A stretch of DNA of 64,000 bases from Vineibacter terrae (GTDB lineage Bacteria; Pseudomonadota; Alphaproteobacteria; Reyranellales; Reyranellaceae). Position 1 is the first letter of the stretch, and each line of letters starts with the position of its first letter. Below the pieces are notes generated by a model. The model was not told where the DNA came from, ran no database searches, and worked only from the letters and a program-made list of their open reading frames with translations. Shown here piece after piece: positions 8,578 to 31,728 of this stretch. The stretch is taken from the NCBI RefSeq assembly GCF_008039615.1, contig NZ_VDUZ01000032.1:1-64000 (forward strand). The letters run 5' to 3'. A program made the translations under genes and the position numbers.

Positions 8578-9795
8578 ATGAGTTCGCCCCCGTCCCAGGT
8601 GGCTGCCGGGTCCGGCGCCCACGTTGTCCGCAACGTCTTCCTGCTCGCCCTGTGCCAGGCCCTGGCGCAGAGCGGCAACGTGCTGATCATCTCCACTACG
8701 GCGCTGGCGGCGCAGACCCTGGAAGGCCGCGATTTCTATTGGACCACCTTGCCGGTGACCCTGCAGCACCTGGGCGTGATGCTGTCGGTGTTTCCGGCGG
8801 CGCTGATGGGGCAGCGGCGGGGCCGCCCGTTCGGCTTCGGGCTGGGGTCGCTGGCCGGCATCACGGGCGGCGGATTGTGCAGCCTGGCGATCTGGCTGGG
8901 CAGCTTCTCCTTGCTGTGCTTTGGCGGACTGGTGATGGGCTACGCCGTCGCCAACATGCAGCTCTACCGCTTCGCCGCCACCGAGCTGGCGCCGCCGCAA
9001 TACCGCGCCAAGGCGATCTCCTACGTCACCTCCAGCGGCGTGGTCGCCGGCATCCTGGGGCCGCTGATCGCGCGCCTGACGCCCGACCTGCTGCCGCACC
9101 AGTTCCTGGCGACCTATATGGGCCTGGTGGTGCTGCACGCCGCCGCCTTCGGCGTGCTGCGCCTGATCGAGTTCCCGGCGGTCAAGGTCGAGCACGCCAG
9201 CGGCCCGCAGCGCAGCCTGGCCGAGATCGCGACGCAGCCGGTCTATGTCGTGGCCGTGCTGGCCGGCATGGTGTCGTTCGGCGTGATGTCCTTCCTGATG
9301 ACGGCCACGCCGCTGGCCATCGTCGCCTGCGGCATCGACGCCCGCGAGCCGCCGATCACCATCTTCTGGCACGTGATGGGGATGTTCGTGCCGGCCTTCT
9401 TCACCGGCCACCTGATCGGCCGCTTCGGCGTGCTCAACATCATGATGCTGGGCATTGTGATGCTGGTCGCGGCCGTCGCCGTCGACCTCGCCGGCATCGA
9501 CGTATGGAACTTCCGGGCCGGCCTGCTGCTGGTCGGCGTCGGGTGGAACTTCCTGTTCGTGGGCGCCACGGCCCTGGTCACCACCGCGTACCGGCCGTCG
9601 GAGCGGGGCAGGGCGCAGGCGCTCAACGACTTCCTCGTGTTCGGCACCACGGCGACGTCCAGCCTCCTGGCCGGCATCCTGCAGCAGGCCTGGGGGTGGA
9701 ACGCGCTGAACTACCTCGCGCTGCCGCTGATCGGCATCGCGCTGCTGGCTCTGACCTGGCTGCGGCTCGCCCGCCGGGTTCCAGCCGGATCATGA
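8578..9795 (+). CDS. Major facilitator superfamily transporter
   Basis: A 405-residue integral membrane protein with about 12 hydrophobic helices in two halves, the usual MFS plan. The loop after helix 2 (MGQRRGRPFGFGLG) resembles the conserved MFS motif between helices 2 and 3. The MFS_1 family covers sugars, drugs and many other substrates, so none is assigned. It stands alone, 86 bases after encapsulin; relatedness to iron metabolism is possible only by position. The start at 8578 could be replaced by a nearby downstream codon. Confidence 0.85.
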   Translation: MSSPPSQVAAGSGAHVVRNVFLLALCQALAQSGNVLIISTTALAAQTLEGRDFYWTTLPVTLQHLGVMLSVFPAALMGQRRGRPFGFGLGSLAGITGGGLCSLAIWLGSFSLLCFGGLVMGYAVANMQLYRFAATELAPPQYRAKAISYVTSSGVVAGILGPLIARLTPDLLPHQFLATYMGLVVLHAAAFGVLRLIEFPAVKVEHASGPQRSLAEIATQPVYVVAVLAGMVSFGVMSFLMTATPLAIVACGIDAREPPITIFWHVMGMFVPAFFTGHLIGRFGVLNIMMLGIVMLVAAVAVDLAGIDVWNFRAGLLLVGVGWNFLFVGATALVTTAYRPSERGRAQALNDFLVFGTTATSSLLAGILQQAWGWNALNYLALPLIGIALLALTWLRLARRVPAGS

Positions 9796-10012
9796 TCGAG
9801 CGCGTCCAGCCCATTGAAAACGCGCGGGAAATCGCGATTCAGTGCGACTTGCCGCAGTTGCATGGCTGGGGGCCTTCTGGCATGTTCCGCCCGCCTTGCG
9901 CCCGGGGGAACTTCCGACAGGTGGGCCCTAACGGATCCGGAAACGCGCCCGGCGGTCGTGGGGATCTCCCGCGATCGATCTCCAAGAGCTTGAAAAACAA
10001 CGGGAAAGACTG

Positions 10013-12133
10013 ATGTCGACTATACTCTGGGCGGTCATAGGGTGCGGCGTGATCGCCGTCCTCTACGGCCTGGTCACGGGACGCGCGGTCCTGGCCAAGG
10101 ACGCCGGCACGCCGCGCATGCAGGAAATCGCCCTGGCCGTCCAGGAGGGCGCCAGCGCCTACCTGAAGCGCCAGTACACCACCATCGCGATCGTGGGCAT
10201 CGTCGTGCTGGTGGTCCTGGGGCTGCTGCTGGGCAAGTGGGCCGCCATCGGCTTCCTGATCGGCGCGGTGCTCTCGGGCGCCGCCGGCTTCATCGGCATG
10301 AACGTCTCGGTGCGGGCCAACGTGCGCACCGCCGTCGCCGCCCAGAAGAGCCTGGGCGATGGCCTGGACCTGTCGTTCAAGGCCGGCGCCGTCACCGGCA
10401 TGCTGGTGGCCGGCCTCGCGCTGCTGGGCGTCGCCGTCTATTACATGATCCTGCTCGGCGCCAAGGTCGACAGCCGCACCGTGGTCGACTCGCTGGTGGC
10501 GCTGGGCTTCGGGGCCTCGCTGATCTCGATCTTCGCCCGTCTGGGCGGCGGCATCTTCACCAAGGGTGCTGACGTCGGCGCCGACCTGGTGGGCAAGGTC
10601 GAAGAGGACTTCCCCGAGGATGATCCGCGCAACCCGGCCACGATCGCCGACAACGTCGGTGACAATGTCGGCGACTGCGCCGGCATGGCGGCCGACCTGT
10701 TCGAGACCTACGCCGTCACCACCGTGGCGACCATGGTGCTGGCCTCGATCTTCTTCAAGGACGCGCAGGCCTTGAGCCTGATGCTCTACCCGCTGGTCAT
10801 CGGCGGCGCCTGCATCATCACCTCGATCATCGGCACGTATTTCGTGAAGCTGGGGTCGGACAACAACATCATGTGGGCGATGTACAAGGGCTTCATCGTC
10901 TCGGCCGTCCTCTCGGCGATCGCGTTCTGGCCGATCACCGACTACGTCGTCGGCATGAAGGCGACGATGACCGTAGGCTCGCTGACCTTCACCGGCATGA
11001 ACCTCTTCATCTGCGCCATCGTCGGCCTGGTGGTCACCGGCCTCATCGTCTGGGTCACCGAGTACTACACCGGCACCGGCTACCGGCCGGTGAAGTCGGT
11101 GGCGCAGGCCTCGGTCACCGGCCACGGCACCAACGTGATCCAGGGCCTTGCGGTCTCGATGGAAGCCACGGCGCTGCCGGCCCTGATCATCTGCGTCGGC
11201 ATCGTGGTCTGCTACCTGCAGGCCGGCCTGTTCGGCATTGCCATCGCCACGACCGCGATGCTGGCGCTGGCCGGCATGGTGGTGGCGCTCGACGCCTACG
11301 GCCCGGTCACCGACAACGCCGGCGGCATCGCCGAGATGGCCGGTCTGCCCAAGGAGGTGCGCAAGAACACCGATGCGCTCGACGCCGTGGGCAACACCAC
11401 CAAGGCGGTCACCAAGGGCTACGCCATCGGCTCGGCCGGCCTCGGTGCGCTGGTGCTGTTCGCAGCCTACACCTCGGACCTCGAGTACTTCATCGCCCAG
11501 GGCAAGCTGGGCGTGACGGCGGTCGAGTTCTCGCTGAAGAACCCGTTCGTGGTCGTGGGCCTGCTGCTGGGCGGCCTGCTGCCCTACCTGTTCGGGGCGA
11601 TGGGCATGACGGCCGTCGGCCGTGCCGCCGGCTCGGTGGTCGAGGAGGTGCGCCGCCAGCTGAAGTCGATCCCCGGCCTGCGTGAAGGCAAGCAGGGCGT
11701 GCGGCCGGAATACGGCCGCCTGGTCGACATGCTCACCAAGGCGGCGATCCGCGAGATGGTCATCCCGTCGCTGCTGCCGGTGCTGTCGCCGATCGTGCTG
11801 TTCTTCGTCGTGCGCTGGATCGCCGGGGCCGAGAACGCCTACGCGGCGCTCGGCGCCATGCTGCTGGGAGTGATCGTCACCGGCCTGTTCGTCGCCATCT
11901 CGATGACGGCCGGCGGCGGCGCCTGGGACAACGCCAAGAAGTCGTTCGAGGACGGCTTCGTGGACAAGGACGGCGTCAAGCACGTCAAGGGCTCCGACGC
12001 CCACAAGGCGGCGGTGACCGGTGACACCGTCGGCGATCCGTACAAGGACACCGCCGGCCCGGCCGTGAACCCGATGATCAAGATCACCAACATCGTGGCG
12101 CTGCTGCTGCTGGCCATCCTGGCCCACCAGTAA
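10013..12133 (+). CDS. hppA: Membrane-bound proton-translocating pyrophosphatase, K+-independent type
   Basis: Hydrolyses pyrophosphate and pumps protons outward across the inner membrane. The 706-residue protein has ~15 membrane helices and all catalytic motifs: [30 protein letters not shown] (about residues 208-230), [15 protein letters not shown] near the N-terminus, and [13 protein letters not shown]. In the [10 protein letters not shown] motif the discriminating position is Lys464; K+-dependent enzymes have Ala there, so this one is predicted K+-independent, like that of Rhodospirillum rubrum. The 217-base upstream gap presumably holds its promoter, but no clear box was identified. A strong terminator follows. 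Confidence 0.97.
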
Positions 12134-17770: not shown

Positions 17771-17800
17771 ATTCTTTCAAAGACTTAGCCAGTGTCTTTG
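17745..17800. other. Probable left attachment site (attL)
   Basis: The 3' part of the tRNA-Pro gene (T-arm to ACCA, to 17770) is the likely crossover region, as for many tyrosine integrases using tRNA genes. A perfect 7-bp inverted repeat, caaagac (17778-17784) and gtctttg (17794-17800), straddles the integrase stop codon and may be an arm site or terminator. The matching attR was searched for by eye in the last 2 kb and not found. Confidence 0.5.
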
Positions 17801-19212
17801 ATCTTCCTGCGGGAGCCATGTGGGACTTCCATGTGGGACTCCGTGCCGGTTTTGATCGCGACGACGTTCGTGCGCCGTTCACGCCGGCCCGTGCTGCTGG
17901 CGACTGCGGCGCGCAGTTCGTCATCGGCAATCTCGATGTAGCCCTGGGTAGTGGAAAAGTCGGCGTGTCGTGCCGCGCCCTGGATTGCCGACGCGGAACG
18001 GGTGAGTGATGCGATCTCCGTGATGAACCGGGCGCGGATGTCATGCACTCGCCGCCGGCGGCCGTCGCTGGGTATGCCAGCATTGGCCTTGGCGCTGCGC
18101 CAGGCACGCTTGATCTCCCGCAGGGGCCTCCACTCTACCGGGGGCGCCTCTTCGCCACTGGCGGCCTTCTGCAGGCGTGCCAGGCCGCCCGGGCCGGGCC
18201 AGGTGACCAGGTGCACCGCGCCGCGCTCGCGCGCCTGCTGCTCCAGCCGATCGAGCAGCTCGATGCCATCAGGTCCGGCCGGGATGAATTCCTCGTCCCC
18301 CGACTTCGTGGCTTCGGGGGGCAGGCGCAAGCCGCCCTCGGCCCTGTCGATCCAGTGGATGGTTGACGACAGGGCTTCGGTACGACGCAGGCCGAACACT
18401 CGCGCCAGCTCGGCGGCGTCCGTCACCCAGGGCGGTGCGACAGCCTCGATCCGGTCGAGTTCGGCGTCGGCCAGCGGTGTCGCCCGGCGCTTGGGCTCCG
18501 GTAGCCGCGTCACACGAGGCGGGAAGGGCAACGACCGCTGGCCAGTAGCAGGATCCACGTGCTCATGCGCGGCCGTGAAGCAGCCCGAGAGGCAATCGAG
18601 GTACAGGTTGATCGTGGTCGGGGTGCGGAAGTGCCCGGTGCCCTTGGGTGCCCAGGCAGTACCGTCCCAGATCAGCTGCGGCATGACGACAGAGGTGCCC
18701 GTGGTGTCCCACCATGCCATGCCCTTGAAGGGCGCCCGAGGCGGCGTCGGCCCGATGTGATTCGGTCGCCAGTATCTGGCGTGGGCCGGATCATCGGCCT
18801 TGCGTTTCGATCCGCCGCACCATACCCGGACCGGCTGCTTCTTGGCCCAGGCGACGTAGCGCTGGATGTCCTCGGTGTTGATATCCGTGATGGCCGTGGC
18901 AGCACCCAGAAAGCCGAACAGCTCGCGGATGTAGCCCAGCACATTGACCCGGTGCCGACCGTCGACGGTGGCCAGGTGCAGGTCGGCAGCATGCGCCAGC
19001 GTGAAGCTGCCAGGCCGCACGCCCTTTCCCCGGCCCTTGCCGATCTTGGCCTCGGCCGCGACAATGGCGCGGCGCTCGATCTTCAGCGCCTGATGGCGGC
19101 TGCGGACAGGCTCACCGGTGTCGGGATCGACGCAGTCGTTGACATGGCGCTCTCCGCCGCGCCAGAAATCGTAGCGCCAGACGCCGCGCGCCTTATCGAG
19201 ATAGACGGTCAC
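17785..19212 (-). CDS. int: Prophage tyrosine-type site-specific integrase
   Basis: A 475-residue tyrosine recombinase whose catalytic residues are visible: Arg276 (GLRRTEA), Lys303, His390-x2-Arg393 (HDIR), His416 (ARHADFS) and nucleophile Tyr425 (TQGYIEI). The N-terminal part (about 60-125) fits a SAM-like core-binding domain; residues about 130-190 form an insertion rich in Trp and Pro not usual in the family. The GTG start at 19212 overlaps the stop of the next gene upstream (GTGA). Its location beside tRNA-Pro identifies the attachment site. Confidence 0.93.
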   Translation of the reverse strand: MTVYLDKARGVWRYDFWRGGERHVNDCVDPDTGEPVRSRHQALKIERRAIVAAEAKIGKGRGKGVRPGSFTLAHAADLHLATVDGRHRVNVLGYIRELFGFLGAATAITDINTEDIQRYVAWAKKQPVRVWCGGSKRKADDPAHARYWRPNHIGPTPPRAPFKGMAWWDTTGTSVVMPQLIWDGTAWAPKGTGHFRTPTTINLYLDCLSGCFTAAHEHVDPATGQRSLPFPPRVTRLPEPKRRATPLADAELDRIEAVAPPWVTDAAELARVFGLRRTEALSSTIHWIDRAEGGLRLPPEATKSGDEEFIPAGPDGIELLDRLEQQARERGAVHLVTWPGPGGLARLQKAASGEEAPPVEWRPLREIKRAWRSAKANAGIPSDGRRRRVHDIRARFITEIASLTRSASAIQGAARHADFSTTQGYIEIADDELRAAVASSTGRRERRTNVVAIKTGTESHMEVPHGSRRKIKDTG

Positions 19213-20337: not shown

Positions 20338-20660
20338 CGCGTTTCCTTGGTTGCGTAGACCTCTTTGAAAGTCCGCAAGAGGGCGTCGGCCGGATGTCCT
20401 ACTCCGGGCTGGACGACACGGTCATAGGCATCAGCCAGGGGCGCATCCGCTGCCATCCCGAGCTGCTGGCCCACCCGCTCTTCAGCGCGCTCCATGGCGC
20501 GGACTCGCATGACCGTGATCACGATGGCCCACCACGACCAGTGCCCTTCTTGTAGGGTAGCGCGCTCTTCGGCGCTCAATTCGTCAACAAGCCGGATCAG
20601 CCGCTCGATTGTGATGTCGATGCGCCGAGGCTTGGCGAAGTGCAGCTCGAGCTGGCTCAT
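20334..20660 (-). CDS. Phage protein of unknown function
   Basis: A 108-residue soluble protein with an N-terminal helix-rich segment (ITIERLIRLVDELSAEERATL) and a Trp-rich WSWWAIVITVMR stretch. No family was recognised. It overlaps its neighbours by 4 bases on each side in the leftward operon. Confidence 0.6.
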   Translation of the reverse strand: MSQLELHFAKPRRIDITIERLIRLVDELSAEERATLQEGHWSWWAIVITVMRVRAMERAEERVGQQLGMAADAPLADAYDRVVQPGVGHPADALLRTFKEVYATKETR

Positions 20661-21772
20661 CGCGGGATCCCCGGCATGGCGTTGTGCTCGACGCCGTCGA
20701 GCGTTCGGCCGGCGCGCTTCTTGCCGACCTTGAACATGGTCATCGCGTCGGCGCCTGCAGCGAACGCCATCGGCGTCGTGACGTCATAGCGGCTGCCGTC
20801 GGCGTGCAGGACGCAGCTGTCGACCAGGCACTTGGTGATCGCTTCCGGATCCAGGCGGGGCGGCGGGGCGTACAGGGTGTCGATGGTGGCGTCGTCGAGC
20901 ACGCATACGGGCGCCCAGCTACCCCATTGCTTGAGGAAATAGGGGATATCGTGGGCCGCGCAGAAGTCGCGTGCGGTGCGGTGCCATGCCGGATGAGACG
21001 GCCGGTCACCGCTCTCGCCGCCTGACACCATCCAGGACAGGAATTCCCAGCCGGTCCAGTCGACGGGGCCGAGGGCGGGCTCGTAGCTCACCCAGGTGCG
21101 CCAGCCGAGCTGGGACAGGGCGCGCATGGCCTCGCGGCGCTCGTCGGCACGGGCCTGGTCTTCAACCGAAACGCCGAGCCAGATATGGCGGAATGTCGGC
21201 GACCAGCGCGACATGCCGCCGGACCAGTCAAATAGCGGATAGGCGGCACCGGGCGGCGGCTCGCCCATCGCCTCGAGCATGTCTGCGAACAGCTGGCCGC
21301 GGCCGCTCTTGTGGGCGGCGCGAACGGCATCGGGACCGCGCGCGTCCTTGAAATCCCAATCCTGCTCGGGATCCACGTCGGCCCAGCGGCGGAAGAAGTT
21401 GAGCATGCGGTCCGGGCGCTTGGTCAGGACCTGCAGCGTATGGAGCTGGGCTCGCGCCATGACATCGAGGACGCGCATGATCCAGCCGTCGATCGCGGCG
21501 AAGAGATCGCCGTGCGCGCAGACGAAGATCCGCCGCGGCTGCTTCCATGTGAGCGGCTGGTACAGCCACTCCTCATTGAAGCGCAGCTCGCCCGTCCATA
21601 CCGGGCCGGCCTTGCTCGGCTGCGTCAGGCCTTTCCTCGACCAGTGATGCTGTAGCCTGGTGCCGGCCAGGCGCATGGCGTAGCAGTCGGCGCAGCCCGG
21701 CGACACGACGCTGCAGCCCGTGATCGGGTTCCAGGTCGCATCGGTCCATTCGATCAGGGAGTGGTCGGCCAT
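20657..21772 (-). CDS. DUF5131 (phage Gp37/Gp68) family protein
   Basis: A 371-residue protein starting SLIEWTDATWNPITGCSVVSPGCADCYA, the diagnostic DUF5131 region, with a CX6CX2C three-cysteine motif suggestive of a metal or Fe-S cluster. Later conserved-looking parts are LQVLTKRPDRMLNFF, WLGVSVEDQARADER, VSYEPALGPVDW and SGGESG. The family occurs in phages and bacteria, often with a three-Cys-motif partner methylase-like protein; no such partner is visible here. Start MADHSL at 21772 overlaps the upstream stop (TGATG). Confidence 0.85.
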   Translation of the reverse strand: MADHSLIEWTDATWNPITGCSVVSPGCADCYAMRLAGTRLQHHWSRKGLTQPSKAGPVWTGELRFNEEWLYQPLTWKQPRRIFVCAHGDLFAAIDGWIMRVLDVMARAQLHTLQVLTKRPDRMLNFFRRWADVDPEQDWDFKDARGPDAVRAAHKSGRGQLFADMLEAMGEPPPGAAYPLFDWSGGMSRWSPTFRHIWLGVSVEDQARADERREAMRALSQLGWRTWVSYEPALGPVDWTGWEFLSWMVSGGESGDRPSHPAWHRTARDFCAAHDIPYFLKQWGSWAPVCVLDDATIDTLYAPPPRLDPEAITKCLVDSCVLHADGSRYDVTTPMAFAAGADAMTMFKVGKKRAGRTLDGVEHNAMPGIPR

Positions 21773-22308
21773 CACGCAGTCTCCGTTTGCGCCGGAGGAG
21801 CGGGCGCGGGCATCCAGTGGGTAGGCGGCTCGTGCTTTCCGAGCGGGCCGAACAGGTCGTGCCACGTCGGATCGGGCGTATCGATCGTGTCGCCGCCGTG
21901 GGTCCACCACTCGCTATCGGTCGGCGCTCGCCATACGACGTCGGTGACGCGGTGTGGAAACTCGCCGCCTACCCACACGTCGATCGGCGTTCCATCCTTC
22001 GGCGCCGTGTCGATCGGCCGCCACCCGATCGGCATTTCCGTGATCGGAGACACCGGCCGGCGCCACGTCCCGTCATTGGCGGCGCGCCATGCGCGCATGC
22101 TATTGGCGCACTGGCGTGCCTCGTCTGCCATTGCACGGTCGCCTTCAGGTCGGCGCCCACGGTTGATGTGCAACTCCCGCCAATCCGCCCAGATATCGAC
22201 CAAGGTCGGCGCGTCGGGATCACGTGCCAAGAGAATGAACATCGGTTCGTCCGGCAGCGCGCTGCCATAACAATCGAACGCGCCAGGTTTCAGCTTGCTG
22301 CCCATCAC
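21772..22308 (-). CDS. Phage protein with DUF551-like C-terminal segment
   Basis: A 178-residue protein. Its C-terminal half, GWRPIDTAPKDGTPIDVWVGG through THWMPAPAPP, resembles the DUF551 domain common in phage early regions. The N-terminal 90 residues match nothing recognised. Function unknown; part of the coupled early operon. Confidence 0.65.
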   Translation of the reverse strand: MMGSKLKPGAFDCYGSALPDEPMFILLARDPDAPTLVDIWADWRELHINRGRRPEGDRAMADEARQCANSMRAWRAANDGTWRRPVSPITEMPIGWRPIDTAPKDGTPIDVWVGGEFPHRVTDVVWRAPTDSEWWTHGGDTIDTPDPTWHDLFGPLGKHEPPTHWMPAPAPPAQTETA

Positions 22309-25029: not shown

Positions 25030-25334
25030 CGCTTGGGATCCGCGGCCTTGGCGGGCCAGCCTTCGACGGTGCGCTCGATGATCCAGATGCCGATCTCGCG
25101 CACCTTCTCGCGATGGAGATCCCGGGCCGACCGTATCGGCTGGCCGTGCGCTCGGCACCATGTCTCTATGGCGCACGCCAGCGCGCCCGCGACGCCGCCG
25201 ATGGCCACCTCGAGCTGATCGACGGGGTGACCGAGCAGCGTGCTGCTGCGCTGGATGGCGTAGACCGTATCGGCGCCTGCCTTGCGCATGAGGTCGTGCC
25301 GGACATGCACCGGCTCGCGCTCTGCCTCGCTCAT
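25026..25334 (-). CDS. Small phage protein of unknown function
   Basis: A 102-residue protein (MSEAEREPVHVRHDLMRKAG) without recognised domains. It is coupled to the ParB-like gene upstream by an ATGA overlap and to the gene downstream in the same way. Confidence 0.6.
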   Translation of the reverse strand: MSEAEREPVHVRHDLMRKAGADTVYAIQRSSTLLGHPVDQLEVAIGGVAGALACAIETWCRAHGQPIRSARDLHREKVREIGIWIIERTVEGWPAKAADPKR

Positions 25335-27550
25335 GCCGAGGCACCTTCTGCCTGGGCGCGCCGCGAACGGCGTTCGCCGGCCGGCTCGGGATCGGGCAAT
25401 TGCTTGTAGTGCGTGAAGGCCTTGTCGAAGGCCGCTTTGTCGAGGATCCGCATCTCGGGCGGCACCCACTCGGCCGCCGGCGGCAGCTGCTCGCCGCCGG
25501 GCTTGTCGGCCTCCTCGAAGCGGGCGGCGATCGCGGCGCGCAGCTGCGTCGTGCTCTTGGGCAGCGGGTCGATACGCAGGCCCCGGGCCAGGACCTCGAG
25601 CCGGGGCTTGCGGCTGCCGGCCAGCCAGGCCTCGGTCGGCCGCCATACGCTGCGCATGTCGATGCCGAGGTGCTGGGCGAGCGCCACGTCGAACGCATCG
25701 TGGTGCGGCGCGACGCTGGCGGCGTAGCCGACATAGTAACCGCAGCGGTCGGCGATCAGCGTGGCGAAGATCTGCAGGCGCTCGTCGCGGGTCTTGCCGC
25801 GCAGCCACGTCCAGATCGCCATCGGCGGTGGCCCCGACCATTCGGACCATGGGCGGTTGACCTGGTCCGGATCGCGATCCAGCACGCCCGCGTCGTCAGC
25901 CTCGACGTCATCGGCGACATCGTCGTCGTCGTCAGGCTCGCTGACTGAGCCGCCCCGCGCCTTCTGCGCCTTGGCCGCGGCGACGATCTCGGCATAGAGC
26001 GCCTGCATGCGCCTGGCCTGCGCGGCGCCGCGGCGCGTGTCCTCGCTGCCGTAGCTGGCATCGCCGATCTTCACCTTCGATACGATGCCCAGCATGCCGA
26101 CGATGGCGAGGCAGATCGCCGTGTCACCCTCGTCGCGGCAGCCCACGCGCACGATCGCGTCCTGCAGGTGCGCCGTCTTCTCGCCCTTGGTGCGGATCAG
26201 CAGGCTCTTGGTGTAGGGCTCCGGCTCCGGCTTCTCGGTGGCCGCGGAAGCCTTGCTGCTGCTCTTGGTGTTGGCGCTCCTGCTGGCTGTGCCGCTGTCG
26301 CTGGTCCTCTCCAGCAGCCCGTCATGGACCTTGATTTCCCAATCGTGCTCGATCTCGATCACGGCGCCGGCGCGAGACAGGTCCTTGGCGCGACTGGTGT
26401 TGTAGTCGTACGAGTGGAAGTACTGATGCTTGTGGGCGTTGACCACCTTCACCCACGCGCGCTGCGTGCGAAGCTCGGTGGCCTTGGCCTCGGCAGCCGC
26501 GAGCTGCAGCTTCTCGAACTGCTTGGCGTCGGTGAACCACGCCTCGCCGTCATTGTCATCGCGAACGATCTCACCGTCATAGGCCTGGCGGTCGAACAAG
26601 GCCCGCGACACCGGATACCAGCTGCCGGTGATTTCCTCCCTGATGGCCTCGGCGTCCCACTTCTCGCCCCATTCGTTCTGTGCGTCGGTTTTGATGGTCG
26701 CTACGATCTGTGCCTGTTGCTTCATCGGCGCCTTGGCCAGCTCGCGCGCCATCTCGACGCTGATGACGCCTTCGGTCAGCGCGCGCTTCGCCGGTGCCGT
26801 CAGCTTGGTGGCAAGCGCGAGGCGCTGCTGCACGAAGCGCTGTGTACGGTGCACCGTCTCGGCGATGCGCGTCGTCGTCCATGTCGTCGGATCCAGCTCA
26901 TGCAGCTCGGCGAAGGCCTCGGCTTCCTCCATGGGCCTCAGCTCGACCCGCTGCAGGTTCTCGACGAGCGCCAGGGCGCGCACGTGGGGTTCGTCGCTGT
27001 TGAGGACGCGGACCGGGATGTTCGGCGCCTTCGGATCCCAGCGGCCGACCTCAGCCAGGCGCATGAGGGCGCGCTGGCGCCGGCCGCCGGCGGTGACCAC
27101 GTGGAGGCCGTCCTTTCCCGGCGGTGCCGAGACCAGGTTCTGCAGGACGCCGTGCGTGGCAATGCTTTCCGCCAGTTCGCCAATCGTGTCGTCGTCGAAG
27201 GCCTTGCGGGGGTTCAGCGGGTTTATCGCCAGCTGGTCGAGCGACAGCATCCGCAGGGTGCCGCGCACATCCGTCGTGGCATCGATCACCTCCGCCGGAA
27301 CGGACGCCGGCGCCGTGCTCGGGGTCGAGCGGCCGGCATAGAGGTCCTCGACGGTGATGCCCATCACGCCGGCAAGCTTCACGGCGCTGTCACCGTTGAG
27401 ATTGTCCTTCTCGCCGTTGGCGATCTTGATCACGATCGACTTGTCGAGGTCGGCGCGGCGGGCGATCTCGTTGCGGCTGACATCGGGATGCGCCGTCAGC
27501 CACTCGACGACGGAACGCTGCAGCAGGCTCTTCCACTTCGGCTTGATCAT
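25331..27550 (-). CDS. ParB/RepB-like protein with N-terminal HTH
   Basis: At 739 residues, the largest protein of the leftward operon. Residues about 5-70 form an XRE-type HTH (VSRNEIARRADLDKSIVIKI). A ParB N-terminal (CTP-binding/nuclease) domain follows (about 100-200: LDQLAINPLNPRKAFDDDTI, GGRRQRALMRLAE, ALALVENLQR), then a ParB central HTH (TTTRIAETVHRTQRFVQQRLAL). The C-terminal 400 residues, including Asp-rich and Ser-rich linkers, are unassigned. A phage ParB-like protein can act in DNA degradation, replication or partition. AGAGGAC lies 6 bases before the ATG. Confidence 0.85.
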   Translation of the reverse strand: MIKPKWKSLLQRSVVEWLTAHPDVSRNEIARRADLDKSIVIKIANGEKDNLNGDSAVKLAGVMGITVEDLYAGRSTPSTAPASVPAEVIDATTDVRGTLRMLSLDQLAINPLNPRKAFDDDTIGELAESIATHGVLQNLVSAPPGKDGLHVVTAGGRRQRALMRLAEVGRWDPKAPNIPVRVLNSDEPHVRALALVENLQRVELRPMEEAEAFAELHELDPTTWTTTRIAETVHRTQRFVQQRLALATKLTAPAKRALTEGVISVEMARELAKAPMKQQAQIVATIKTDAQNEWGEKWDAEAIREEITGSWYPVSRALFDRQAYDGEIVRDDNDGEAWFTDAKQFEKLQLAAAEAKATELRTQRAWVKVVNAHKHQYFHSYDYNTSRAKDLSRAGAVIEIEHDWEIKVHDGLLERTSDSGTASRSANTKSSSKASAATEKPEPEPYTKSLLIRTKGEKTAHLQDAIVRVGCRDEGDTAICLAIVGMLGIVSKVKIGDASYGSEDTRRGAAQARRMQALYAEIVAAAKAQKARGGSVSEPDDDDDVADDVEADDAGVLDRDPDQVNRPWSEWSGPPPMAIWTWLRGKTRDERLQIFATLIADRCGYYVGYAASVAPHHDAFDVALAQHLGIDMRSVWRPTEAWLAGSRKPRLEVLARGLRIDPLPKSTTQLRAAIAARFEEADKPGGEQLPPAAEWVPPEMRILDKAAFDKAFTHYKQLPDPEPAGERRSRRAQAEGASA

Positions 27551-29513: not shown

Positions 29514-29666
29514 TCACAGCCCTCGGCAGCGGCGCCAGCGTGGGCAGCCGTTGATCAGGCACATCTTCGAACCGCAGTGCGGGCGCGGCTCGAGCAGGGC
29601 GCGCAGGCGCGCGTGCAGGTTCCGGACGCGATCGAGGAGCGCGAGAAGGCGGCGCGTCATGGTCAT
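29514..29666 (-). CDS. Small basic phage peptide (50 aa)
   Basis: A 50-residue Arg/Cys-rich reading frame (MTMTRRLLALLDRVRNLHAR, with later CGSKMC and NGCPRWRRC). Start overlaps the upstream stop as TGATG; the gap to the 33-aa frame is 3 bases. The cysteines may bind zinc. Existence rests on position and coupling only. Confidence 0.4.
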   Translation of the reverse strand: MTMTRRLLALLDRVRNLHARLRALLEPRPHCGSKMCLINGCPRWRRCRGL

Positions 29667-29968
29667 CACCGCGCCGTCGCCAGCTGCGCCAGCGCGCCGA
29701 ACGCGACCTGGCCGGCGTCGGAGACGCCGTCCAGCGCATCGGTGAGCGCGACGCGGTCGCCCGTGGCCAGGGCCAGGTCGAGCGCCCTGGTCGCGTCGCG
29801 CAGCAGGGCGCTCAGCTTGCTCACCTCGAGCGCCAGGCGCTGGCCGGCCTCGGTCTGCGGCCAGGGGCCGATCAGCAGCGCGATGCCCGGGCGGGCGTAG
29901 GCCGGCACGTGGCGAACGGCGTTCGCCACGGCCGGATCGACGAGGAGACGGGGCAGGGTGTCAGGCAT
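29666..29968 (-). CDS. First gene of the leftward early operon, unknown function
   Basis: A 100-residue helical protein (MPDTLPRLLVDPAVANAVRH). ATG at 29968 has GAGG six bases upstream; a GTG start at 29995 would collide with the operator region. As the promoter-proximal gene under repressor control it is probably expressed early after induction. No family recognised. Confidence 0.6.
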   Translation of the reverse strand: MPDTLPRLLVDPAVANAVRHVPAYARPGIALLIGPWPQTEAGQRLALEVSKLSALLRDATRALDLALATGDRVALTDALDGVSDAGQVAFGALAQLATAR

Positions 29969-29999
29969 TGGCAACCTCGCGTTTAAGGTTTCCACTATG

Positions 30000-30016
30000 G
30001 TTGCCAGAATGGCAAC
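30000..30016. promoter_or_regulatory. Phage operator, left site 1
   Basis: GTTGCCAGAATGGCAAC is a perfect 7-bp inverted repeat with 3-base centre, identical in both arms to the site at 31435. It lies 32 bases before the first leftward gene, where a repressor would block the early promoter. Confidence 0.8.
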
Positions 30017-30033
30017 TCATTGGCAACGAGAAA

Positions 30034-30050
30034 GTTGCCGGAATGGAAAC
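30034..30050. promoter_or_regulatory. Phage operator, left site 2 (imperfect)
   Basis: GTTGCCGGAATGGAAAC matches the GTTGCCA-N3-TGGCAAC consensus at 12 of 14 positions and lies 34 bases from left site 1. A further half-site TGGCAAC is at 30021-30027. Confidence 0.65.
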
Positions 30051-30136
30051 GGAACGAGATTACGGCAGCTTCAGCCGCTGGCGGCGGGCTGGTGTCTAGT
30101 CTTTTGTCGGCGTGAGGCTAATACAACCGGCGCGAT

Positions 30137-30679
30137 TCAGACGGTGCCCTGGCGCCACAGGGTCTCGGCCAACTGCAGGCAGAAGGCATCGAATTCCTGC
30201 TGGTCACGGACGAACTTGTGCACGCCGGTCTTCGACCGGATGCGCCAGCCGGCTCCTTCCGAGGTGATCTCGACGCCTTCGCGCTGCAGGAAGGCGCGGG
30301 CATCAGACGCGGTCATCGGCGCGGCGGTCGGCCAAGTGCTGGTGTGCGCGGTCCGTGCGTCCGGCGAGGCTTCGGCGTTGGCTGCGCTCGGCGCCGCCGG
30401 CGCCGCCGCCTGGTGGTGAGCCAGCCGGCCGAGATAGTGCAGCTGATCAACGATCGCCTTGACGCCGTCGGCTTCAGCCTTGGCCTGCTGCTCGCGCGCC
30501 TGCCGCACGGCGCCGGCGATGTTGCCACCGGCCAGCAGCACACAGCCCGACAGGAAGAGCGTGCCGGTCAACATCAGGTCGGGGATGCTGGCGATGCCCT
30601 TGTTGGCGATGGCATTCATCGTCGCCATGAAGCCCCATGCCAGTGAAAGGCAGATGAGGATGATGCCGGCGGGGAGCAT
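30137..30679 (-). CDS. Prophage membrane protein cotranscribed with the repressor
   Basis: A 180-residue protein with two N-terminal membrane helices (about 3-25 and 38-58), a charged helix, an Ala/Pro linker and a C-terminal cytoplasmic domain (SDARAFLQREGVEI, GWRIRSKTGVHKFVRDQQEF). It follows the repressor gene by 47 bases on the same strand, so it should be expressed in the lysogen, the position of lambda rexAB and other exclusion genes. An alternative TTG start lies at 30715. No family recognised; an immunity or exclusion role is inference. Confidence 0.65.
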   Translation of the reverse strand: MLPAGIILICLSLAWGFMATMNAIANKGIASIPDLMLTGTLFLSGCVLLAGGNIAGAVRQAREQQAKAEADGVKAIVDQLHYLGRLAHHQAAAPAAPSAANAEASPDARTAHTSTWPTAAPMTASDARAFLQREGVEITSEGAGWRIRSKTGVHKFVRDQQEFDAFCLQLAETLWRQGTV

Positions 30680-30726
30680 GGACAGGCTCTTTTTTTGAGA
30701 GGACGTCGTTTGCAAACGCTACAGGA

Positions 30727-31368
30727 TCAAACCAGCTTGCGGTAGTGATCGACGGCAACACCGACGATGTGGCCACGGTTGTCGGACGTGATCGTGAGCG
30801 TGGGCCAATCGCTGTTCAACGGCACCAGCTCGACCACCTGCTGGCCCGGGCGGCCGGCGCTCTTGAGGCGGTAGCGCTTGAATGTCGCCTGCTGGTCGCG
30901 CTCGAGCTTGGCTACGACGTAGCGACCGGGCACGGCTTCCATGTCGGGGTCGACGATGATCACATCGCCCTCGCGAAATTCGGGCAGCATGCTGTCGCCC
31001 TCGATACGCAGCGCGAAAGCGCGGGGACCGACCTTGCGCCAGGTCGGCACATGCTCGACGACGGGGTGGGGGTCGGTGACCTCCGTCCAGTGGCCGGCGC
31101 GCACCGAATCCAAAAGCGGCACCATCTGGGCGGGGGTTATCTCGCGGTCATCGGGGGCCGTGCCGGGCGGCTGCAGAAGCTTGTCGGCGGTCGTGTCGAG
31201 CGCGCTCGCGAGTCGGCGAAGCCAGGGCACGGTCAGGCCACGCTGGCCGCTCTCCAGCCGCGAGACCTGTCCCTTGGTCGTGCGGGCACCGGCGGCGAGC
31301 TGCTCCAGGGTCAGGCCGCGGAATTGCCGCCACGCGCCCAGGTAGTTGGTCGGCTTCGGTTTGGCCAT
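30727..31368 (-). CDS. Prophage repressor, XRE HTH plus S24 (LexA-type) protease domain
   Basis: A 213-residue CI-like repressor. Residues about 15-60 form an XRE HTH (LEQLAAGARTTKGQVSRLES). The C-terminal S24 domain has an Ala91-Gly92 cleavage site (SVRAGHW), nucleophile Ser126 (EGDSMLPE) and Lys164; spacing of 35 and 38 residues nearly equals that of LexA, so RecA-stimulated self-cleavage and SOS induction are expected. Start MAKPKPTN at 31368 lies 8 bases from an operator; a longer frame to 31413 would run through that operator. Confidence 0.93.
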   Translation of the reverse strand: MAKPKPTNYLGAWRQFRGLTLEQLAAGARTTKGQVSRLESGQRGLTVPWLRRLASALDTTADKLLQPPGTAPDDREITPAQMVPLLDSVRAGHWTEVTDPHPVVEHVPTWRKVGPRAFALRIEGDSMLPEFREGDVIIVDPDMEAVPGRYVVAKLERDQQATFKRYRLKSAGRPGQQVVELVPLNSDWPTLTITSDNRGHIVGVAVDHYRKLV

Positions 31369-31376
31369 GCCCCAGT

Positions 31377-31393
31377 GTTGCCGGGTTGGCAAC
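31377..31393. promoter_or_regulatory. Phage operator, right site 3
   Basis: GTTGCCGGGTTGGCAAC has 6-bp perfect outer arms of the operator consensus and lies immediately upstream of the repressor ATG, fitting autoregulation. Confidence 0.75.
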
Positions 31394-31395
31394 GT

Positions 31396-31425
31396 TTGGA
31401 CAGACGCCAACATGGCAACTAAATC
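31396..31425 (+). promoter_or_regulatory. Candidate rightward early promoter
   Basis: TTGGAC (31396-31401) and TAAATC (31420-31425), 18 bases apart, lie between operators and just before the Cro-like gene. The operator at 31403-31419 would fill its spacer, so repressor binding should occlude RNA polymerase. Confidence 0.45.
31403..31419. promoter_or_regulatory. Phage operator, right site 2
   Basis: GACGCCAACATGGCAAC matches the 14 fixed positions of the consensus at 12. It lies between the other two right-hand sites (start-to-start distances 26 and 32 bases). Confidence 0.65.
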
Positions 31426-31434
31426 TTGACTGAG

Positions 31435-31451
31435 GTTGCCAATATGGCAAC
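31435..31451. promoter_or_regulatory. Phage operator, right site 1
   Basis: GTTGCCAATATGGCAAC is a perfect copy of the consensus. It overlaps the start codon (31444) of the Cro-like gene and its Shine-Dalgarno, so bound repressor would block transcription of the rightward early genes. Confidence 0.8.
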
Positions 31452-31728
31452 CATAGGCGCCGCCATGCCAAGCCTAGCCGACCACCTCGCCCAAACCCGC
31501 GAAAAGCAGGCCGCGTTCGCACGCCGCGCCGGTCTCTCCCGTGCGCAGCTGAGCCGCGTGCTCAGCGGCAAGCGGCCGCCGACTGTCGATGTTGTGGACA
31601 AGGTCGAGGCCGCGACCAACGGCGTGGTCACGGCCAACGACCTGTTCGCCGCGTACAGGGCAGCGCGCGCCGCCCTGCAGGCGGGGACCGGAGCAGGCGA
31701 GGCTATGCCCATCATGGAGGGCGGCTGA
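31444..31728 (+). CDS. Cro-like HTH regulator
   Basis: A 94-residue protein divergent from the repressor. It has an XRE-type HTH, HLAQTREKQAAFARRAGLSR to LSRVLSGKRPPTVD (about residues 12-50). ATG at 31444 has GAGG at 8 bases; an internal ATG at 31465 is an alternative if transcription starts late. By position it is the Cro counterpart that would compete with the repressor. Its stop overlaps the next start (TGATG). Confidence 0.8.
   Translation: MATIGAAMPSLADHLAQTREKQAAFARRAGLSRAQLSRVLSGKRPPTVDVVDKVEAATNGVVTANDLFAAYRAARAALQAGTGAGEAMPIMEGG

Follow-up and report, generated by a model that had tools for sequence, protein, structure and literature searches.

Predicted repressor operators of a lambda-type switch in a Vineibacter terrae prophage and the recurrence of their core in viral contigs

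Five copies of the palindrome GTTGCCA-N3-TGGCAAC flank the repressor region of a 47-kb prophage in the window, the term used here for the whole stretch of 64,000 nucleotides of Vineibacter terrae DNA that was analysed. We estimate at about 0.9 the probability that they are the operators of a lambda-type lysis-lysogeny switch, three at OR and two at OL, bound by the prophage CI. The features of a lambda-type immunity region are found together at this locus, namely a CI protein combining HTH and S24 domains, residues suited to autocleavage, a divergent Cro-like gene and palindromes arranged 3+2 at both early promoters. The sequence evidence supports their interpretation as CI operators, which are very probably real, with occupation by CI as a prediction. 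The result is a map of operators and promoters for a prophage without close relatives among the named phages that were searched, and it ties the operator of the window to a promoter-operator module recurring in viral contigs.

The original prediction had listed five sites, and all of them are present where it placed them: those at 30000 and 31435 agree with the consensus throughout (0/14 mismatches), the site at 31377 deviates at one base and keeps perfect outer 6-bp arms, and those at 30034 and 31403 carry two mismatches each. When the 64-kb window is scanned with up to 2 mismatches of 14 allowed, the motif occurs in exactly these five copies, against a mean of 0.18 and a maximum of 2 copies, and never five, when the window was dinucleotide-shuffled 100 times. 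The excess becomes modest at up to 3 mismatches, where two extra weak matches (10715 and 22401) bring the count to 7, compared with a shuffle mean of 2.71, and 7 is reached in 2 of the 100 shuffles. A scan of the complete genome (8,756,861 bases or 8.76 Mb, 135 contigs), which had been proposed along with the sites, found the motif not equally frequent elsewhere: only two perfect sites exist, both in the OR/OL set (30000 and 31435), one of the two sites with a single mismatch is the member of the set at 31377, and sites with up to 2 mismatches number 23, five of them in the window. The genome contains 13 copies of the 10-base core TTGCC-N5-GGCAA, three of them here, and 7 of the same pattern read backwards. 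A blind palindrome search around the start of cI, to which the motif was not supplied, ranked GTTGCCA-N3-TGGCAAC at the top with exactly the same five copies (nominal 8.8e-11 versus 2.1e-4 for the best of 20 shuffles); the same search applied as a positive control to lambda imm434 recovered a plausible operator set, ATACAA-N6-TTGTAT. The coordinate 29969, at which the predicted region began, corresponds to a lone half-site and there is no sixth full site; this GTTGCCA, on the minus strand at 29969-29975, immediately adjoins the first leftward gene at its start codon.

Three of the sites lie between the repressor and the Cro-like gene and two upstream of the leftward operon, as had been proposed. 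On the Cro side, OR1 (31435..31451, GTTGCCAATATGGCAAC, perfect) is placed between the -35 and -10 boxes of a putative rightward promoter PR, OR2 (31403..31419, GACGCCAACATGGCAAC, 2 mismatches) just upstream of the -35 box, and OR3 (31377..31393, GTTGCCGGGTTGGCAAC, 1 mismatch, with a perfect TTGCC-N5-GGCAA core) ends 8 bp before the start codon of cI. PR would span 31426..31454 on the plus strand, with a -35 TTGACT at 31426-31431, a 17-bp spacer and a weak -10 AACCAT at 31449-31454, and the ATG of the Cro-like gene at 31465 follows after a short leader. The TTGACT box sits between OR2 and OR1, 7 nt after the core of the former and 4 nt before the core of the latter. On the opposite side, OL1 (30000..30016, GTTGCCAGAATGGCAAC, perfect) is flanked by the -35-like box and the -10-like box of a putative PL (29997..30026, minus strand), whose TTGCCA at 30026-30021 and AACCAT at 30002-29997 are separated by 18 bp, and OL2 (30034..30050, GTTGCCGGAATGGAAAC, 2 mismatches) has lost one base of an arm, reading GGAAA for GGCAA. 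PL is devoid of a TTGAC box and its TTGCCA, 5 nt before the proximal core, agrees in position only; an extra half-site at 30021 falls where the PL -35 should be and is thus probably the -35-like box itself. OR1 and OR2 are 32 bp apart and OL1 and OL2 34 bp, both about three helical turns, and the 26 bp between OR2 and OR3 correspond to about 2.5 turns and place these two sites out of phase. A sigma-70 promoter scan returned nothing over threshold in this region and the -10 boxes match the consensus at 3 of 6 positions; the assignment of PR and PL is therefore founded on the geometry of tandem operator pairs described below rather than on consensus.

The sites of this single consensus flank a CI-type repressor gene with a divergent Cro-like gene, in keeping with the original prediction and with the HTH_3/S24 and HTH_3 matches of the two products. 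The repressor (30727..31368, minus strand, 213 aa) carries HTH_3/HTH_31 and Peptidase_S24 domains (Pfam 1e-7 for HTH_3 and 3.1e-20 for S24) and its best PHROG match is phrog_4, 'transcriptional repressor' (9.7e-36). Since the ATG at 31413, which would give a 228-aa form, is located inside OR2, 31368 is the likelier start of cI. Ala91-Gly92, Ser126 and Lys164 occupy the positions at which LexA-type autocleavage residues are expected, and we take their roles to be those of the corresponding residues of lambda CI and LexA. An AlphaFold2 model built on a 15-row alignment (mean pLDDT 75) matches lambda CI and LexA and puts the recognition helix at residues 32-40 (K32...R37). The Cro-like HTH protein (31465..31728, plus strand, 87 aa, HTH_3 4.2e-8) is divergent from cI and has a recognition helix, LSRAQLSRV, that resembles the TTKGQVSRL of CI. 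The companion gene downstream of cI (30137..30679, minus strand, 180 aa) has no Pfam, PHROG or PADLOC match; its product shows hydrophobic N-terminal stretches by eye and its position suggests a role in lysogenic conversion or exclusion. The presumed leftward early operon opens with a gene (29666..29968, minus strand, 100 aa) that has no family match. The leftward early region further encodes a ParB-like protein of 739 aa bearing an HTH at its N terminus (25331-27550, minus strand), and a DUF5131 protein (20657-21910, minus strand, Pfam 1.7e-66) also matches the PADLOC candidate-defence models PDC-M41B and PDC-M30B. The window contains a terminase gpA and a lambda-type portal together with an integrase-like gene at 17785-19212, whose score of 1.7e-5 falls just below Pfam's own cut-off. 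The predicted viral record IMGVR_UViG_2886402059_000003 of IMG/VR corresponds to this 47,208 bp prophage and extends, by offset, from window position 17785 to about 992 bases past the window end.

In the mechanism that we propose, CI dimers would bind the TTGCC-N5-GGCAA core. As OR1 and OL1 are situated in the -35/-10 spacers of PR and PL, their occupancy would block RNA polymerase, and OR2 and OL2, set off from them by about three helical turns, could support cooperative binding in pairs. OR3 borders cI and may mediate autorepression of that gene. DNA damage would relieve repression at both promoters through RecA-stimulated CI cleavage at Ala91-Gly92. Some of these sites are probably also targets of the Cro-like protein; since phiKO2 Cro bound OR3 only (PMC4997575), sharing of all sites is no given. 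The binding order of the original prediction, with 31435 and 30000 strongest, is unsafe and we regard it as uncertain, because the tightest site of the 933W repressor is not its consensus (PMC3317979).

The core of these operators is not confined to the window. When IMG/VR was scanned for pairs of exact TTGCC-N5-GGCAA cores separated by 5-35 bp, 50 stretches were detected, compared with 16 for the reversed and 9 for the permuted pattern. An HTH gene was present within 500 bp in 23 of the 50 tandem-pair stretches, in 2 of the 16 reversed and in none of the 9 permuted ones; TTGAC, in either orientation, stood between the sites of the first pair of each stretch in 29/50, 3/16 and 2/9, respectively. 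In 36 of the 50, the starts of the two sites were 31-36 bp apart. When all pairs are considered, 32 TTGAC instances occur at 30 loci; the gap from TTGAC to the proximal core is 4-5 nt in 26 of them, and that from the distal core to TTGAC is exactly 8 nt in 24. The window fits this geometry at PR (7 and 4 nt) and PL (8 and 5 nt), and the gaps and spacing of the latter are all common values among tandem-pair loci. The exact-pair pattern has no match in the genome itself, the OR2 core having 2 mismatches and the OL2 core 1, with the spacings of 32 and 34 bp within the 31-36 bp range. Many of the 50 stretches lack both an HTH gene and TTGAC and are probably chance occurrences or coding repeats. 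Three contigs carry two separate tandem pairs each, L341 (615 and 1021), L325 (217 and 942) and L311 (1799 and 5393), likely representing OR/OL arrangements. In two other contigs, L384 and L388, pairs of the permuted core CTTGC-N5-GCAAG enclose TTGAC at spacings of 34 and 32 bp; as they share both spacing and TTGAC, this geometry may extend beyond the TTGCC-N5-GGCAA core. A stricter two-site pattern gave no match, and the exact tandem pair was found in none of 385 genomes of the class of the host, so that the module is uncommon among the genomes sampled.

Single sites are less informative. Among the matches listed for both motifs, a XRE gene lies within 200 bp of the perfect 17-mer in 5 of 120 viral stretches and of the reversed motif in 0 of 120, one of the five being the prophage of the window and two near-identical (L094 and L163); with 5/120 adjoining a XRE gene among the matches listed, a single perfect site was set aside as a weak sign of repressor use. 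L094 encodes a 211-aa CI-like repressor, 25% identical to CI of the window over 165 residues, flanked by three sites, a perfect one upstream and two with 2 mismatches downstream, 24 bp apart. In L137, GTTGCCAAGGTGGCAAC is present in two perfect and two near-perfect copies over 2.7 kb (8778-11496), perhaps as a repeat in a gene. The original prediction spoke of an apparently new operator: a description of the motif was indeed not found in the literature searched, whereas its uniqueness has to be given up, as core and tandem geometry recur in many viral contigs. The operator is thus new for the repressor of the window and not unique.

The proteins adjoining these pairs share a feature of their recognition helices. 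Five proteins adjoining such sites served as seeds for an HTH profile, and the helix set comprised the HTH proteins within 100 bp of pairs together with CI and the Cro-like protein of the window, L094, L127 and L083. The background excluded copies of the window, L094, L127, L083 and L163 loci, matches at pair loci more than 100 bp from the pair were left out of both sets, gapped helices were dropped and identical ones merged (31 to 24 near pairs, 69 to 60 in the background). Arg or Lys at the position of 434 residue 33, without Gln at 28, characterized 24 of 24 distinct helices near pairs and 22 of 60 in the background (Fisher 1.3e-8, a value that takes helices as independent whatever their relatedness, for a rule whose 'no Gln28' half was added post hoc, after the named-phage result). 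The helices of CI and of the Cro-like protein conform to the rule, both being among the proteins that suggested it. Its nearest precedent is reportedly the work of Hall, Lefevre and Cordes (2005) relating Cro recognition helices to operator half-sites. A simpler rule, in which Arg33 alone would denote TTGCC operators, was rejected: the exact core is absent from all ten named-phage regions (L372-L381), three of which contain only a single one-mismatch match, though some of their proteins possess Arg33. Arg33 is accompanied by Gln28 in PAJU2, Mae-JY02 and RHph_Y25 Cro.

A structural rationale is offered by phage 933W, for which residues 21-46 of the repressor were superposed on 434 residues 12-33 in a model, with Lys46 at position 33 (PMC3317979). 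Reportedly, Lys46 contacts the guanine in the C-G base pair at position 5 of the operator, and specific binding was abolished by the K46A substitution (PMC3317979). Position 5 of TTGCC-N5-GGCAA is also C, which makes Arg37 of CI a natural candidate reader, and we predict that Arg37 reads the C-G pair at that position. Put together, TTGCC-N5-GGCAA may constitute an undescribed operator class recurring in temperate phages, with sites about three turns apart, a -35 fixed between them, and otherwise unlike HTH repressors following one rule of Arg/Lys33 (C-G at position 5) and no Gln28; this generalization is tentative, and we are slightly more doubtful than confident of it. If true, operator sequence would be predictable from repressor sequence within the class, and the correlation between helix pattern and core could help in predicting from sequence to which immunity group a prophage belongs and whether it is inducible.

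These observations also bear on what else the five sites could be. That they are mainly bound by the Cro-like or another prophage HTH protein, CI using some other sequence, would accord with the Cro-like helix LSRAQLSRV, which fits the Arg33/non-Gln28 pattern too, and with the small Cro-like HTH genes that tandem-pair loci often adjoin as well (L328, L352). The CI helix fits the pattern equally, however, three sites immediately precede cI and the other two lie past the opposite end of the pair formed by cI and its companion gene, and the top-ranked palindrome set of the blind search consists of these same five, so that we hold this explanation to be unlikely. Even less probable is a one-sided switch operating at OR, with the OL pair vestigial or serving another role such as looping; the lost arm base of OL2 and the missing TTGAC box of PL would suit it, but OL1 is perfect and the geometry of the OL pair is typical (gaps of 8 and 5, spacing of 34).

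A chance cluster of a GC-rich palindrome could draw on the modest excess over shuffles at 3 mismatches and on the lone perfect sites encountered inside long open frames of related genomes (G002, G017). It is contradicted by the shuffles, none of the 100 of which attained five sites at up to 2 mismatches, as well as by the location of both perfect genome sites here, and the geometry agrees with that of other viral loci; we consider it scarcely credible. The preferred reading remains that of CI operators on both sides of the immunity region.

The control DNA shows no similarity to any phage record searched, and CI of the window is at most 43.5% identical to phage records among the best 40 of 332, all 332 being below 60%. 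Exact 15-mers and written forms of the motif led to no description in the literature searched, in which subscription journals are little covered, wider searches turned up nothing pertinent to it among the entries listed, and the accessible part of PMC3694467, on a promoter of rhizobial phage 16-3, holds nothing on the GTTGCCA motif. The idea that the closest CI relatives have these operators in common was rejected, as the blind palindrome search gave other motifs or nothing. Nominally significant palindromes of other sequence were obtained for imm434, Klebsiella L297 and L298, Bordetella L299, L010, L012 and L013, and weak or middling scores for L015, L016, L018 and L019; the search yielded nothing clearly above shuffles for VP882 (L300), Shewanella L301, L006-L009, L011, L014 and L020-L023.

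Among known systems, the lambda/434 switch likewise combines an HTH+S24 CI, a Cro and 17-bp palindromes at both early promoters, with an operator sequence that differs from that of the window. Lambda possesses three operators per side. The flanking placement that the original prediction described as exactly that of lambda OL and OR is confirmed, but the count is not, lambda having six operators in all versus five here, and 3+2 being the layout of N15 and phiKO2 (PMC4997575). In the immB region of these phages, a repressor CB and a divergent Cro enclose OR1-3 and a second early control region contains OL1-2, that is, five sites of similar length, as here (PMC4997575). Their operator motif, T-A-N10-T-A, is nevertheless unlike that of the window, and their CB lacks the self-cleavage residues that CI of the window has (PMC4997575). 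The 15-bp palindrome of 933W conserves a C-G pair at position 5, with which Lys46 makes contact, matched here by C at position 5 and Arg37 in the equivalent place, whereas the 933W half-site is otherwise different, with G-C at 2 and A-T at 3 and 4 (PMC3317979). The tandem-pair phages of IMG/VR (L308, L311, L318, L323, L341, L349, L353 and others) and L094 share with the window the core (degenerate there in OR2 and OL2), the spacing and HTH repressors with Arg/Lys33, and most of those named have a TTGAC -35 between the sites, as at PR. Their repressor sequences are distant, and the window instead has three OR sites, of which OR2 is degenerate. Seen against these systems, the switch is an ordinary one of the lambda type, and the recurring module and the helix pattern lift the case above routine.
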